This document shows positions 1 through 6,416 of a DNA stretch of 64,000 bases, piece after piece. A program made the position numbers and the translations under genes. Numbering within the stretch: position 1 is the first letter of the stretch; the number at the start of each line of letters is the position of its first letter. This stretch comes from Thiocystis minor. GTDB lineage: Bacteria > Pseudomonadota > Gammaproteobacteria > Chromatiales > Chromatiaceae. Under the pieces are notes generated by a model. It searched no databases, was not told the origin of the DNA, and worked only from the letters and a program-made list of their open reading frames with translations. The stretch lies in the NCBI RefSeq assembly GCF_016653465.1, contig NZ_NHSQ01000057.1, positions 1 through 64,000 on the forward strand, read 5' to 3'.

Positions 1-810
1 GGCGATCACGCAGGTCGCCTCCAGCGTCCCGCGGCGTCCGTCCGGGAGGGTCACCCGTTGCGCGTAAAGCCGTTGATGGACCTCGCGCGCCGCCCGTCCG
101 CGCCCCGCCGGCAGGACGAAGCGGATCTCGCCCAACGGTTCGCTCGCCAGCACCCGGTCCCACAAGCGATCGCCGTCGGGCAGGGCGCGGTTGTGCTTGG
201 CACGCAGCAGCCAGTCGGCGGGGTTGCCCAAATCGCGCGCGCCTCGCATGAGGTCAAGCAGATCGGCTTCGCGATCGGCCAGGTCGACCAGCCGGGTCTG
301 CGGCAGCTCGGCGGCCAGGTCCGCGACCCGCGCGTACCCTTCGCCCCAACGCACACTCTCCTTGATCCCCGGACGGGTGCCGTCGGGGTCTTTCGGCTCC
401 CGCGCCCACATCCAGGCATCCACCACGCCCAGCGGTTCGCGCGCGGGGGTGATGGCGTACGTGGGGTGCAAGTACATCCCGCGCTGGGCTTCAAAGCTCA
501 GTGGACCCAGGCCGTCAATCGCCTGTCCGTTGAAGTTCAACTCGGTGGTGTCCTGCACGCACAGCACCACCGGCTGGCTCGCCATGCGTTCGCGCGTGCA
601 TTGGCGATGCGGTTCCAGGATATCCATCCACTCGAACGTCTCCTGGGACAGAAAGCGAGACGCCGCCTGGGTCTCCGCCCAACCATGACACGCGCCCGGA
701 ATGCTCGCCGTGGGTCGCTCGGCCAGACGCTCCACCAATTGAACCACCCGCCGATCGCGGCGCGCGTCGCCCAGAGCGATCCCGCGAAATTCGTCTTCTG
801 CCCAGCCCAT
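1..810 (-). CDS. IS4-family (Tn5/IS50-like) transposase, 3' part beyond window edge
   Basis: The minus-strand frame is open from an ATG at 810 to base 1, so about 270 codons are visible and the C-terminus lies outside the window. A TTG at 837 is an alternative start; a TAA stop lies just upstream at 844-846. The N-terminus (FDGVCMGWAEDEFRG, then RRDRRVVQLVERL) matches the Tn5-type DNA-binding domain. A DTTELNF segment corresponds to the first catalytic Asp of the DDE nuclease and LADREADLLDL to the second. The third acidic residue (YREK motif) would be past the edge. It catalyses cut-and-paste transposition of its own element. The other long frames here are shadows. Whether the copy is intact cannot be judged. 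Confidence 0.8.
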   Translation of the reverse strand, partial: MGWAEDEFRGIALGDARRDRRVVQLVERLAERPTASIPGACHGWAETQAASRFLSQETFEWMDILEPHRQCTRERMASQPVVLCVQDTTELNFNGQAIDGLGPLSFEAQRGMYLHPTYAITPAREPLGVVDAWMWAREPKDPDGTRPGIKESVRWGEGYARVADLAAELPQTRLVDLADREADLLDLMRGARDLGNPADWLLRAKHNRALPDGDRLWDRVLASEPLGEIRFVLPAGRGRAAREVHQRLYAQRVTLPDGRRGTLEATCVIA

Positions 811-995: not shown

Positions 996-2795
996 TCAGA
1001 CAGGCTCGTCTAGTAGAAGTTGCTCAATTTCTTTCATAACCTCCATCACCCGCCGCTCCTTCTCCAACATCTCCGCAATCAACGCCTCCGGCGACCGATG
1101 CTCCAACGCCTCCAGGCTATGCGGATTCTTGATGTCGAGATTGAACAGGGGCCAGTAGAGCCCGTCGCCGATGCCCTGCTCCTCTTTCTGCCGGGCGCGC
1201 AGAGCCGGGAGCCGATGCTTCAAGTCGCGGATCTCGCGCTCGGCCCGCTCCTGTTCCGCGCGCGAGTGCTCCGGCCGCTCGCGCCAGATGGCGAGCCGCT
1301 TCTCCAGATCCCGCAGTGTCCGCTCGGTCTCCAGCGCCTCCTGCCGCGCCCGCTCGGCGGCGTCCCAATGGGGCTGGGCCTGTTCGCGGGCGGCGGTCAG
1401 CCGCTCGGCGAACGGCAGTCTCCAGGCGCGCGCGTTCTCTTCGCGCTGGCCCCACCAGGCCAGACACGCCTCGAATTCGGCATAGTCCATGGGCTTGGTC
1501 TTGCTGTACTTCTTGCGTCCCTCCGGCGGGGGGATCTGGTAGAACCAGATGTCCTGGGTCGGTCCCGAGCGGTCGAAGAAGAGCAGATTGGCGGGGATGT
1601 CGGTATAGGGCGAGAAGACGCCCTCGGGCAGTCGCACGATGGTGTGCAGGTTGGAGCCCTTGACCAGCGCCTCCTTGATCCGCGCAGCGATGCCGTCAGC
1701 GAAGAGGGTGCCGTTGGGGACGACCACGGCGGCGCGTCCGCCGTTCTCAGCACCCTGTCCCGGCCGCCTCAGCTTGCGCATGATGAGTTGCAGGAAGAGC
1801 AGCGCGGTTTCGGCGGTGCGCATGTCCTCGGGGAAGCCGCCAAGGATGCCCTTCTCCTCCTCGCCGCCGAAGGGCGGATTGGTGAGGATGACATCCACCC
1901 GGTCGCGGTCGCCGATCTCGTTCAGTTTCACGTCCAGGCTGTTACGCGGGTCGATCCGGGGGTATTCGAGCCCGTGCAGCAGCAGGTTCATCTGGACCAG
2001 CAGATAGGGCAAGGGCTTGGCCTCGCCACCCTGGAGCGTACTGTTCTGTAGGGTGGCGCGGTCCTCGACGCTGTGGCATTGCGTCTCCAGGTGGCGCATG
2101 GCCTCGGCCAGAAAGCCGCCGGTGCCGCAGGCGGGGTCGAGGATGGTCTCGCCCAAGCGGGGATCGGTCACCTCCACCATGAAACGCACCACCGGACGCG
2201 GGGTGTAGAACTCGCCCGAGTCGCCCGCCGCGTCGCGCATCTCGCGCAGCATGGTCTCGTAGAGACGGCTCAGGGTGTGCATCTCGTCGGAGGCGTTGAA
2301 GTGGATGCCGTTGACCTTGTTGATGACATCGCGCAGCAGATAGCCGTTCTGCATGCGGTTCTGCAGGCCCTTGAAGACAGTGGCGATCACGTCGCGGCGG
2401 TCGCCGCCATTCGTTCCCTGAAGGTTGCGCAGATAGGTGAAGAGTCCGGGGCCTTCGCGACCGTTCGGCAGGACGGCGCGCTCCAGGTTGATGAAGGCGA
2501 TCAATTCGTCGCCGGTGATGCCGCCTTCATCCGTCGCCCAGTCGCGCCAGCGGTAGGGCGGGACGATAGCCGGCTGAAATGGCTTGCCCCGCAGGATCGC
2601 TTCGGTCTCGCGCCGCTGCTCCAGGTCGTCGAGAAACTTGAGGAACATGATCCAGGTGAGGATGGGCAGGCGGTCCAGCTCCCCCGAGAGCCCCTTGTCC
2701 TTGCGCATGATCTGGCGGGCGGATTTGACGATACCGCCGAGTTGCGCGGCGGTGGTCATGGGTTGACTTTGACTGGCGGTCTTCTGTCTGGGCAT
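996..2795 (-). CDS. hsdM: Type I restriction-modification system DNA methyltransferase subunit HsdM
   Basis: 599 aa, an adenine-N6 methyltransferase that with HsdS forms the modification complex of a type I system. An N-terminal helical HsdM domain (residues ~15-160) precedes the SAM-binding motif DPACGTGGF at 220-228 and the catalytic NPPF at 306-309. The C-terminal ~110 residues are charged and probably coiled coil. It is transcribed with and downstream of hsdR, higB and higA; the gap to higA is 15 bp. No hsdS specificity gene follows: within about 115 bp the sequence runs into the IS4-family element. The methylase domain itself looks intact. Confidence 0.93.
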   Translation of the reverse strand: MPRQKTASQSQPMTTAAQLGGIVKSARQIMRKDKGLSGELDRLPILTWIMFLKFLDDLEQRRETEAILRGKPFQPAIVPPYRWRDWATDEGGITGDELIAFINLERAVLPNGREGPGLFTYLRNLQGTNGGDRRDVIATVFKGLQNRMQNGYLLRDVINKVNGIHFNASDEMHTLSRLYETMLREMRDAAGDSGEFYTPRPVVRFMVEVTDPRLGETILDPACGTGGFLAEAMRHLETQCHSVEDRATLQNSTLQGGEAKPLPYLLVQMNLLLHGLEYPRIDPRNSLDVKLNEIGDRDRVDVILTNPPFGGEEEKGILGGFPEDMRTAETALLFLQLIMRKLRRPGQGAENGGRAAVVVPNGTLFADGIAARIKEALVKGSNLHTIVRLPEGVFSPYTDIPANLLFFDRSGPTQDIWFYQIPPPEGRKKYSKTKPMDYAEFEACLAWWGQREENARAWRLPFAERLTAAREQAQPHWDAAERARQEALETERTLRDLEKRLAIWRERPEHSRAEQERAEREIRDLKHRLPALRARQKEEQGIGDGLYWPLFNLDIKNPHSLEALEHRSPEALIAEMLEKERRVMEVMKEIEQLLLDEPV

Positions 2796-2810: not shown

Positions 2811-3236
2811 TCAGGCGCGGGTTGCAATGAGATCGGAGTGGCGGCTGTCGCGGTCGGTGGCGGCACGCGGTGCGGGTTCTCGAATGAGGACATCCGCCGA
2901 GATGCCGAGCCCTTCGCTCAGCCGGCGGATCATGTTGAGACTGAGGGGGCGTTTGTGGTTGAGGATTTCCGATACCTTGGACTTGGAGCCGATGTAGGGC
3001 ACGAGATCCTGATTTTGGAACCCCATCTGATCCATGCGGAAGCGAATCGCCTCGATGGGGTCGGGTGGATCGATCGGGTAGCGCTCCTGTTCGTAGTGCT
3101 CGATGAGCAGGGCGAGCAGATCGATCTCTTCGGCTTCGGGAGTGTCGGGCGCTGGGTCCAGGTCCATGAGGTGGGTCAGACGCTCCAGCGCCTGGCGGTG
3201 CGCCTCGTCGGTCTTGATGATTCTTGGCTGGTTCAT
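2811..3236 (-). CDS. higA: HigA-type antitoxin, XRE-family HTH
   Basis: 141 aa from ATG 3236. A longer reading from 3278 would overlap higB, so the shorter start is preferred; it begins 13 bp after the higB stop. The N-terminal half is acidic (residues ~30-65) and the C-terminal half is a helix-turn-helix domain (FQNQDLVPYIGSKSKVSEIL) of the kind found in HigA antitoxins that pair with HigB. It should bind and neutralise the upstream toxin and repress the pair's promoter. It sits between hsdR and hsdM on the same strand, so the module is embedded in the restriction-modification operon. Confidence 0.82.
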   Translation of the reverse strand: MNQPRIIKTDEAHRQALERLTHLMDLDPAPDTPEAEEIDLLALLIEHYEQERYPIDPPDPIEAIRFRMDQMGFQNQDLVPYIGSKSKVSEILNHKRPLSLNMIRRLSEGLGISADVLIREPAPRAATDRDSRHSDLIATRA

Positions 3237-3249
3237 GGTCTGCACCCGC

Positions 3250-3534
3250 TCAGAAGCGTTGCTTGTTGTATTCGGCATGGGTTCCGACCCACTCGATCAC
3301 CACCAAGCCCTGCTGGTAGCGCACCTTCACGACGAGGCGATAGTGGTTGCCCTTGATGTTGAAGATGACCCGTTTGTTGGCCAGAAAGTCCGCGCTGCGG
3401 TGCCGGTTCCTGATGTCCTGCGGAGTGGACCAGGTGCTGCGCGAGACCTCGTCGAACCATGCTTCCAGTGCCGCCTTGGCGTTGGTGCGCCGCTCCCAGA
3501 AGGAGACGAGCTTGTCTCGGCCGACGACCTTCAT
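3250..3534 (-). CDS. higB: HigB-type mRNA interferase toxin
   Basis: 94 aa, full length for the HigB_toxin family (MKVVGRDKLVSFWERR at the N-terminus, basic core with KGNHYRLVVKVRY and the C-terminal VEWVGTHAEYNK-like motif, here VIEWVGTHAEYNKQRF). Known members cleave mRNA on the ribosome. The toxin gene precedes its antitoxin, the usual order for higBA. About 85 bp separate it from the end of hsdR, so it may have its own promoter. No damage is visible. Confidence 0.85.
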   Translation of the reverse strand: MKVVGRDKLVSFWERRTNAKAALEAWFDEVSRSTWSTPQDIRNRHRSADFLANKRVIFNIKGNHYRLVVKVRYQQGLVVIEWVGTHAEYNKQRF

Positions 3535-3619: not shown

Positions 3620-6270
3620 TCAATGCTGATACAGCAAGGCTTGCATTCGATCGACCGCCTGTTTCATCTGGAGAGCGCCGCCGAACAGGCCGGCGATCTC
3701 CATGGCGTTGCCGTGCTTAGAGATCGGCAGAACTCCCAGTGCGTCGGGGATGTTGAACTGGCTTGGGCCGAAATCACTGTACTTGTCGAGCAAGGCAGCG
3801 AGGATTTGACGCGCCTCGGGGCCGTACTGGTCGAAGAGGTCGGGATGCGCCTTGCGCAAATGCTGGGCGCGCTCCTTGCGGGTCCGCAAGGGCGACTCGA
3901 AGGCGAGATGACAGAGCAGGTCGAGCGGGTCGGCGTCGGATCGACCCGTGACGTCCGTCAACTCCGTGAAGGTGATCCCGCGCTCTTCCAGCGCCAGGAT
4001 GATTTCCTCCCGCTGCACGGGGTCGGCCCAGCGGTCCTGTAACTCATCGGCCGAGGTGAAGAGGGTGCGGATCTTGTCGGCGGTGTAGTCGGTGAACTGC
4101 ACCGCGCGCAGTTGGTTACCCTCGGCATCCAGTTCGTAGACGATGTGGGCGATGATCTCGATCTGGCCGCCATCCACGTAGAACTTCCGAGGCGGTGGCG
4201 GCGGGGGTGGCGGAGGCGGGGGTGGCGGAAGTTCCTCGGGCTCATCCGGGTCGATGTCGATCGTTTCTGGCTCTTCACCCTCCCGGTCATCGACATGCAT
4301 GTCGTCGCCCGTCGTCGTGATGAGCGTCTCCTCCTTGATCTCGCATCCAATGCCATCGATGGTGATCTCCTCTTCGAGATCGGGAAAGCCGTCGAAGTCC
4401 GGATCGGCGAAGTTGCGGGTCGCCGAGCCAGTGTAGTCTAGGATGTTGAACCAGGTCTTGCCGTAGTCCTCGCGCATCCGGGTGCCGCGACCGATGATCT
4501 GTTTGAACTCGGTCATGGAGTTGACGACACGGGCCAGGACAACGTTCTTGCAGGTGGGCGCGTCCACGCCCGTCGTGAGTAGCTGGGAGGTGGTGAGGAT
4601 GACCGGACTGGTGGTTTCAAGCTCCTGAAAGCGGCTCAGATGACCCTTGCCGAGCTTGCCTTCTTCCGAGGTGACGCGGGCGACGTAGTCCGGGTATTTC
4701 TGGACCAAATCGGTGTTGAGATTGTTCAGGGCGCGTCGCATCGCGTCGGCGTGCTCCTGATCGACACAGAAGACGATGGTCTTGGCGAAGCGGTCGGTGC
4801 GCCGCATGAAGTCGGTAAGATGGCGGGCGATGGCATCGGTGCGCGCGCGCAGGGCGATGATCCGCTCGAAGTCCTTGGTCTGATATTCCTCGTCCGGGAT
4901 CGCGCGGCCGTAACGGTCGACCTCGCCCTTGCTCGGGCGCCAGCCCATGGCATCCGCCTGGGTCACGATCCGATGCACGCGATAAGGGGCCAGGAAACCG
5001 TCCTGGATGCCCTGACGCAGACTGTAGGTGTAGAGCGGATTGCCGAAGTAGTCGTAGGTATCGCGGTTGTCCTCGCGCAGCGGGGTGGCCGTCATGCCGA
5101 GCTGATAGGCTGGCGCGAAGTAGTCGAGGATCTCGCGCCAGTTGCTGTCAGCGCGGGCACTGCCGCGATGACACTCGTCGACGATGACCAGATCGAAGAA
5201 ATCCCTTGGATAACCACGGTACAGACCGGGTCGGCGAGCATCCATCGCGATGGCCTGGTAGATGGCGAAATAGATCTCGCGGCTCTTGATGACCTCGCCC
5301 TCGATCTTGTGGCGGGCATCGCCGAAGGGGGCAAAGGTCTTGTCCTTGGGGTCGTCGATCAGGACGTTGCGGTCGGCGAGAAAGAGGATGCGGGGCTTGC
5401 GGTGCGCGCCCTCCCGATTCCAGCGGGCGTTCCAGAGCTTCCAGCAGATCTGGAAGGACACCACCGTTTTGCCGGTGCCCGTCGCCATGGTCAGCAGAAT
5501 GCGCCGCTTGCCTTGCAGGATCGCCTGTACCGTTCGGTTGATGGCGATCTCTTGGTAATAGCGAGGGACGTAGCCGGCGACATGGTGATAGGGGGCCAAG
5601 AGCTTGTCCGCGAGACGCGGCTCGATCCCCAGTCCGGCCTGCAATCTGGCGAACAGTTCGGCGGGTGTCGGAAAAGCGGTCAGCTCAGTTTCCCGCCCGG
5701 TCAGATAATCGAACTCGATGATCCAGTGACCGTTGGTGGCATAGGCGAACTTGAGGCCGAGGATCTCGGCGTAATCCTTCGATTGCTGCAAGCCTGTGCC
5801 GGGCGGATCGGATTCCGGTTTGGCCTCGACCACCGCGATCAGGAAATCGCGGATAAAGCGAAGCAGGTAGTTCTACTTTGTTAACTTTGACTGTCGCATA
5901 AATTAATGAATTTTAAGTTATTTTTTATTAGGCGCAATAAATCTTCATTTACTATGCCCCTATTGAAGATAGATGTTGGCGGTTTATGGGTGATTATAGG
6001 CGCTCAACGCGCCACTAGAACCCTATTGTTTATGTGTATTTTTGTTTATTATCATAAAATTTAAACACTTAAAGATTTTTTGAAGGTAACAAAGTAGAAG
6101 TAGTCAGCCCGCTTTCGATCCAAACGACGGGCGATATTTCCCTGGATCTCGATCCGTCCGTCGGTGAAGGTCTGCTGCTCGGTCATGGAATGAGGATGCT
6201 GCTCCCATCCCGCCTCCCTGAGCCTGGGGGTCACATAGACCCGACAGGTATCCGCCTCGTTCAATGACAT
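3620..6270 (-). pseudogene. hsdR: Type I restriction enzyme R subunit HsdR, interrupted by a 229-bp element
   Basis: Two pieces of one gene. Codons 1-57 (6270-6100) read MSLNEADTCRVYVTPRLREA... to RKRADY; the rest resumes at 5866 as LLRFIRDFLIAVVEAK and runs to 3620. Removing 229 bp plus one 4-bp duplication restores an 805-residue frame. Domains: N-terminal HSDR nuclease, Walker A ATGTGKT (about 185-191 of the rebuilt protein), DECH box, helicase lobe and an EcoEI-type C-terminal domain; a tract of 13 prolines lies at 4190-4235. The insert falls between the Asp of RADY and the ExK of VVEAK, i.e. through the PD-(D/E)XK active site, and puts a TAG in frame. A GTG at 5833 could still yield a 737-aa helicase without complete nuclease. 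Confidence 0.88.
5871..6099. mobile_element. 229-bp MITE-like element inserted in hsdR
   Basis: The ends TTCTACTTTGTTA (5871-5883) and TAACAAAGTAGAA (6087-6099) are perfect 13-bp inverted repeats; allowing one mismatch they extend to about 17 bp. GTAG at 5867-5870 and 6100-6103 is a 4-bp target duplication. The interior is strikingly AT-rich for this genome and has no credible ORF. These are the hallmarks of a miniature inverted-repeat element mobilised in trans. The parent transposase is not in the window; the IS4-family element at the left edge has different ends. Confidence 0.85.
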
Positions 6271-6416
6271 CCTCCGACATCCCCATGGCTTCATGCTTCG
6301 ACGAGCGATCTTCGCCCATCAATGGTGACGTGTAAAGCAAGCGCGTGCAAAGCCGCCTCTTCGGGATTGGTGTCCTCGGTTCGGGATTATCCGCATTGGG
6401 ATGCGCGATGGTTATA

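Follow-up and report, generated by a model that had tools for sequence, protein, structure and literature searches.

The window (the whole 64,000-nucleotide stretch of DNA analysed) begins inside a transposase gene, followed by a type I restriction-modification system whose hsdR gene is divided into two pieces by a short element. The features are as follows.

1-810, minus strand: transposase with a Tnp_DNA_bind domain (PF14706, E = 2.6e-22) at the contig start, adjoining the 3' end of hsdM
996-2795, minus strand: hsdM, open, 599 aa (PF02384, E = 1.1e-56; PF12161)
2811-3278, minus strand: probable HigA-type antitoxin partner, named by position and by eye; no Pfam family found
3250-3534, minus strand: HigB-type toxin gene between hsdR and hsdM (PF09907, E = 2.8e-30)
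3620-5866, minus strand: 3' piece of hsdR, 748 aa plus stop, LLRF...VVEAK..., with the ExK, the helicase and the C-terminal domain (EcoAI/FtnUII type)
5867-5870, plus strand: target-site duplication GTAG, left copy
5871-5883, plus strand: left terminal inverted repeat, 13 bp, perfect (TTCTACTTTGTTA)
6087-6099, minus strand: right terminal inverted repeat, a perfect copy of the left 13 bp
6100-6103, plus strand: target-site duplication GTAG, right copy
6100-6270, minus strand: 5' piece of hsdR, 57 codons, MSLNEAD...RADY, a stretch unbroken in relatives and carrying the presumed nuclease Asp

The interrupted hsdR gene

The 57 aa and 748 aa encoded by the two pieces add up to 805 residues and form a single frame when the element is removed, in agreement with the sequence-only reading, in which RADY was separated from LLRF...VVEAK by the element. 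Asp...ExK is the nuclease motif of type I HsdR. The insertion point is one residue past the Asp of RADY and the ExK lies in VVEAK, which bears out the earlier placement of the break between the Asp and the ExK of the PD-(D/E)XK nuclease. As it stands, the 5' piece encodes 69 aa and ends 12 codons into the element, and the 3' frame is closed immediately ahead of LLRF by an in-frame TAG in the inverted repeat; the list of open reading frames begins the 3' piece at GTG 5833, within AVVEAK, giving 737 aa. Tested as 3620-5833, this piece matches NF046051 (EcoAI/FtnUII type R, E = 3.6e-284) and PADLOC REase_I (5.7e-200) and contains the PF04851 (ResIII) and PF08463 (EcoEI_R_C) domains. Like other EcoAI/FtnUII type I R proteins (NF046051), the gene has RADY...VEAK and the same domain order, but it is interrupted between the Asp and the ExK, and this EcoAI-type HsdR lacks one continuous frame for its PD-(D/E)XK, helicase and C-terminal domains, the break falling after RADY. 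The helicase part and hsdM are both open, as had been proposed. Because the Asp is parted from the ExK, the nuclease should be dead even with a translation restart at GTG 5833, and, judging from the position of the insertion, the system very probably cannot restrict. hsdS is not among the genes identified in the parts of the window that were scanned, where the 3' end of hsdM adjoins the transposase gene at the contig start. A 233-bp segment here (649-881) recurs at 94% identity at the start of another locus of the genome (L005), which holds a copy of the element with unmatched duplications.

A search for HsdR over 204 genomes of the family gave a match of any strength in 130, and 29 relatives were fetched (L099-L127). 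The Asp...ExK stretch is unbroken in one frame in 20 of these, including L100, whose protein is 93% identical; for the remaining nine, no frame was picked (L099, L118) or the frame was without the motif. At the DNA level, the alignment across the junction that the sequence-only reading had recommended is gap-free in L100 (86%), L099 (84%) and L102 (79%), and L101 and L103 also matched, at lower scores. The HsdR match of L099 contains a single in-frame TAG.

A multicopy element with IS701-type ends

The element occupies 5871-6099 (229 bp), with a GC content of 30% versus 62% for the whole window; coordinates, end matches and base composition all accord with its first description as AT-rich, bounded by perfect 13-bp inverted ends and flanked by a duplicated GTAG. 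The 13-mer end has just two matches in the window at no more than one mismatch, whereas 100 shuffles averaged 0.00 matches. Six-frame translation found stop codons in all six frames and no transposase gene. No RNA family was found by Rfam over 5700-6300 at E ≤ 1, and no promoter-like or terminator-like sites were found over 5800-6200. The element folds better than its shuffles, both as DNA (z = -3.5) and as RNA (z = -5.5); the paired inverted ends contribute to these scores, and we assign no role to the fold.

The genome, a 5.30-Mb draft of 198 contigs, contains 24 complete copies of the element, all identical, a number that is a lower bound given six further partial matches at contig ends, although two partial matches could represent a single divided copy. 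One of the six (C3) appears to be nested inside another copy. Matching 4-bp duplications, NTAN throughout, flank 23 of the 24 complete copies, the exception being L005 (CTAC/TTAA). TTAA occurs seven times and CTAA three times; TTAG, CTAG, GTAA and CTAC occur twice each, and GTAG, TTAC, CTAT, ATAG and ATAA once each. We use the term MITE for multicopy elements under about 500 bp that have inverted repeats and a target duplication, contain no transposase gene and share their ends with an insertion sequence (IS). By its size, ends, duplication and copy number, and by the IS with matching ends described below, the element at 5871-6099 is a non-autonomous MITE, and its 24 identical copies with 23 matching duplications represent a recent burst.

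Elsewhere the element is rare. Within the family, 2 of 210 genomes matched it, namely its own and one of the same genus, a Thiocystis metagenome-assembled genome (MAG) with a full-length copy at 88% identity (L087) and unmatched flanks (CTAT/TTAA). It was absent from the plasmid collection searched, and no viral contigs matched the end pattern. The same 13-bp ends were found in seven stretches (L087-L093) across four named genome sets. Six of these (L088-L093; 214-236 bp) combine the same perfect 13-bp ends with different cores and come from a Gammaproteobacteria MAG, a Verrucomicrobia MAG and Desulfamplus, so that the end sequence is shared across phyla. With at most 53% identity to our element by global alignment, they were rejected as the same element and share its end type only. 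Their 4-bp flanks match in L088, L091, L092 and L093 (in the last as CTCC, not NTAN) and, as in L087, are unmatched in L089 and L090.

An IS with matching ends is also present in the same genome, so that both parts of the genome-wide search suggested by the sequence-only reading, for other copies and for such an IS, gave positive results. Its left end, TTCTACTTTGTTA, was found at three sites (C45, C116 and C88) and its right end, TTCTACTTTGTCA, which is one base off, at six (C11, C70, C131, C132, C154 and C179). A C-terminal transposase fragment matches the IS701-family profile NF033540 (E = 7.9e-29; 101 bits, below the cut-off of 150), and searches of the contigs did not recover the central part of the IS. 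This C-terminal piece has matches of any strength in 35 of 204 family genomes. The complete IS was recovered from a sister genome (G008; one contig, 5.0 Mb), which has 13 matches to the fragment at 92% identity. Paired ends, all perfect 13-mers (TTCTACTTTGTTA), occur in ten of the 13 fetched stretches; eight pairs span 1520 bp and one 1519 bp. Matching NTAN duplications (TTAG, CTAA, TTAC or TTAA) flank eight of the nine unambiguous pairs, those of L225 being unmatched (TTAA/CTAA), and L219 is ambiguous in having two left ends, with ATAA matching when the outer one is taken. The full-length transposase scores 280 bits against NF033540 (cut-off 150) and contains DDE_5 (PF13546, E = 3e-45).

IS701-family elements make a 4-bp target duplication, YTAR. 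The shared ends and duplications suggest that the MITE was probably moved by an IS701 transposase. It differs from the family in having no transposase, the ends alone being in common; by eye, no sequence shared by MITE and IS was seen past the first 13-17 bases, and an origin as a simple internal deletion of the local IS was rejected on this ground. Among other members of the family, the IS701 element of Thiodictyon syntrophicum pTs417 resembles the MITE in its perfect 13-bp ends (TTCTACTTTGTTA), with unmatched flanks (CTAG/CTAA), whereas that of Allochromatium tepidum pAt1 carries two mismatches per end and is flanked on both sides by TTAA.

Two alternatives bear on whether the insertion is genuine. 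The common frame of the two hsdR pieces across the empty site would also be expected if the element were a functional part of the gene, as a regulated or programmed interruption. Identical copies at 23 other sites, the presence of the element in so few family genomes, and the unbroken stretch in 20 of the 29 HsdR relatives, the other nine giving no motif-bearing frame, make this highly improbable. The repeated sequence might likewise be an artefact of assembly in a draft of 198 contigs with partial copies at six contig ends; however, the flanks differ among the 24 complete copies, the duplications match at 23 of them and the related 88% copy lies in a separate genome, and we give this explanation almost no credence. 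A recent burst of an IS701-ended MITE that split the nuclease of HsdR and is depleted within genes is, as a whole account, strongly favoured.

Genes hit by the burst

A codon-model gene finder placed 11 of the 24 copies within genes; two of these lie at a stop codon (L006 and L020), and one gene hit that was missed (L015) was added, giving ten. This is far fewer than the 234 of 300 random TA sites that fell inside genes (p = 0.0003), in a comparison in which the flanks of the copies were shorter than those of the control and at least two genuine gene insertions (L015 and hsdS on C179) escaped the finder. By the finder alone (9 of 24) the p value is 0.00006, and with 11 of 24 it is 0.001. The random sites were drawn, with weighting by length, from 60 stretches (808,614 bases), mostly the first 20 kb of contigs picked by number. 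Flanking GC content is 0.54 at the copies and 0.60 around random TA sites. At contig ends, the finder called two of six one-sided sites genic, and one of these two falls at a stop codon. Besides hsdR, the interrupted genes are the following.

L003: HsdM of a second type I system, interrupted one residue ahead of NPPF
L018: Hhe gene
L017: PLD-helicase gene, with an abrupt junction in the frame before the helicase motifs
L009: BPTD_3080 restriction enzyme, its frame stopping at profile position 534 of 970
L002: gene with a sacsin-like ATP-binding domain (NF047352, 84.8 bits, cut-off 50; weak TmtA match, 7.4e-08)
L010: DUF2857 gene
L015: IS701 transposase gene, the copy lying near the gene start
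L008: autotransporter-like gene, named by eye
L013: IS66-like transposase gene, named by eye

The genes at L017 and L009 seem to have suffered other damage besides the MITE. In addition, a copy of the IS701 parent lies inside an hsdS on C179 (Methylase_S, 23.5 bits, cut-off 22) that belongs to a third type I system, whose HsdM scores 270.7 bits against TIGR00497 (cut-off 242.75). The order there (L202, 281-5395) is an open hsdM, a HipA-like gene (by eye) and then the hsdS cut by the IS. In the second system (L201 on C124, 4111-9416), an open EcoAI-type hsdR is followed by a gene for an Mrr_cat protein, which lies between it and the MITE-split hsdM. Around the split sacsin-like gene (L200 on C176, 1720-14999), very long frames stand in a row, possibly an undescribed defence system.

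PADLOC (E ≤ 1e-30), applied to seven of the ten gene-interior copies (all except L008, L013 and L015), identified four of the ten as lying in defence genes: HsdR, HsdM, Hhe and PLD_Helicase. In the control, 300 random TA sites hit 170 distinct genes, among which at least nine defence genes were read manually, a count resting on 25 of 54 families: TmtA, DrmD, Cas8c, an SNF2 helicase, PtuA, PtuB, DUF499/HEC-01A, a type IIG enzyme and ATPase_I-A. Hits to PD-T4-6, mad3, mad6 and DndA/SspA, which we take to be likely kinases or housekeeping proteins, were omitted from the count. Of these nine, four could be assigned to their genes by scanning 20 of the 170 singly together with DrmD, and carry nine of the 300 sites. 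Fisher's exact test by gene gave p = 0.003 with nine control genes, 0.013 with 15 and 0.030 with 20; when the index case was removed, the corresponding values were 0.016, 0.049 and 0.093. The comparison by site (four of 24, with 16 of 300 assumed for the control) gave p = 0.05, and 0.14 when the index case was left out. The enrichment for defence genes is no more than suggestive.

These figures raise the alternative that the burst was not neutral, the MITE marking an active disarming in which the loss of defence was favoured (by its cost, by self-targeting or by phage-free culture) or defence genes were preferred targets. The gene-level excess over the control (about nine in 170), which persists at p = 0.016 without the index case, argues for it, as do a fifth hit gene outside that count (BPTD_3080), a possible sixth (the sacsin-like gene) and the parent IS within the hsdS of the third type I system. 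The control is soft, however, with p rising to 0.030, or 0.093 without the index case, when 20 control genes are assumed; the per-site comparison is at p = 0.05 and 0.14; two of the hit genes (L009 and L017) look otherwise damaged; and in G008 only one of ten paired IS701 copies is genic, by the same finder trained on the genome of the window, its host gene resembling the DUF2857 gene of L010 by eye. In view of the soft control and the lack of such a pattern for the IS of the sister genome, we rank the enrichment as a rival rather than as our main claim, and consider active disarming unlikely. Stated more broadly, the proposal is that a recent IS701-MITE burst selectively dismantled phage defences (one subunit in each of three type I systems, namely R, M and, through the parent IS, S, together with Hhe, PLD-helicase and BPTD_3080) whose loss was either far better tolerated than that of other genes or favoured; in this form we regard it as somewhat more plausible, yet still doubtful.

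Precedents and proposed course of events

MITEs that inactivate restriction-modification genes are of a known kind; the notable part here is the number of defence genes hit. A report on Pseudomonas syringae (PMC6053426) describes such inactivation and, in pv. actinidiae, MITEPsy3, which is 102 bp long, has 78 copies and is ascribed to an IS. MITEPsy3 resembles our element in being short, high-copy, attributed to an IS and inserted in restriction-modification genes that it inactivates, but differs in size and in its proposed parent (ISPsy25), whereas the 229-bp element belongs with the IS701 group and hits type I systems. In Microcystis aeruginosa PCC 7806, a 187-bp MITE with 31-33 identical copies (PMC11448079) is likewise mainly intergenic with some genic copies and has an IS with matching ends in the same genome; it differs in its ISL3-family parent and its 8-nt duplications. 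For Anabaena sp. 90, another report (PMC3542288) gives 147 MITEs, 15 of which are within disrupted ORFs, and the portion of PMC3718332 that we consulted places MITEs in a variable region, with no MITE-cut restriction-modification gene seen there. In the literature searched, no report was found of an IS701-type MITE like the 229-bp element.

In the course of events that we propose, an IS701 transposase would recognise the MITE ends and insert the MITE at NTAN sites, giving the 4-bp duplication. A recent burst would have spread at least 24 identical copies, one of them into hsdR, between the Asp and the ExK of its PD-(D/E)XK nuclease. Most in-gene copies may then have been removed by selection, or AT-richer DNA may have been preferred as a target, and the surviving gene insertions would be mainly in dispensable genes, several phage-defence genes included.

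With its identical copies and clean duplications, this strain offers a snapshot of a transposon burst ahead of decay. Surviving insertions are rarer in genes than expected by chance, and those within genes frequently hit defence genes. Should a whole-genome test bear this pattern out, bursts of this kind would be a rapid way for bacteria to lose their immunity, leaving them exposed to phages and foreign DNA.
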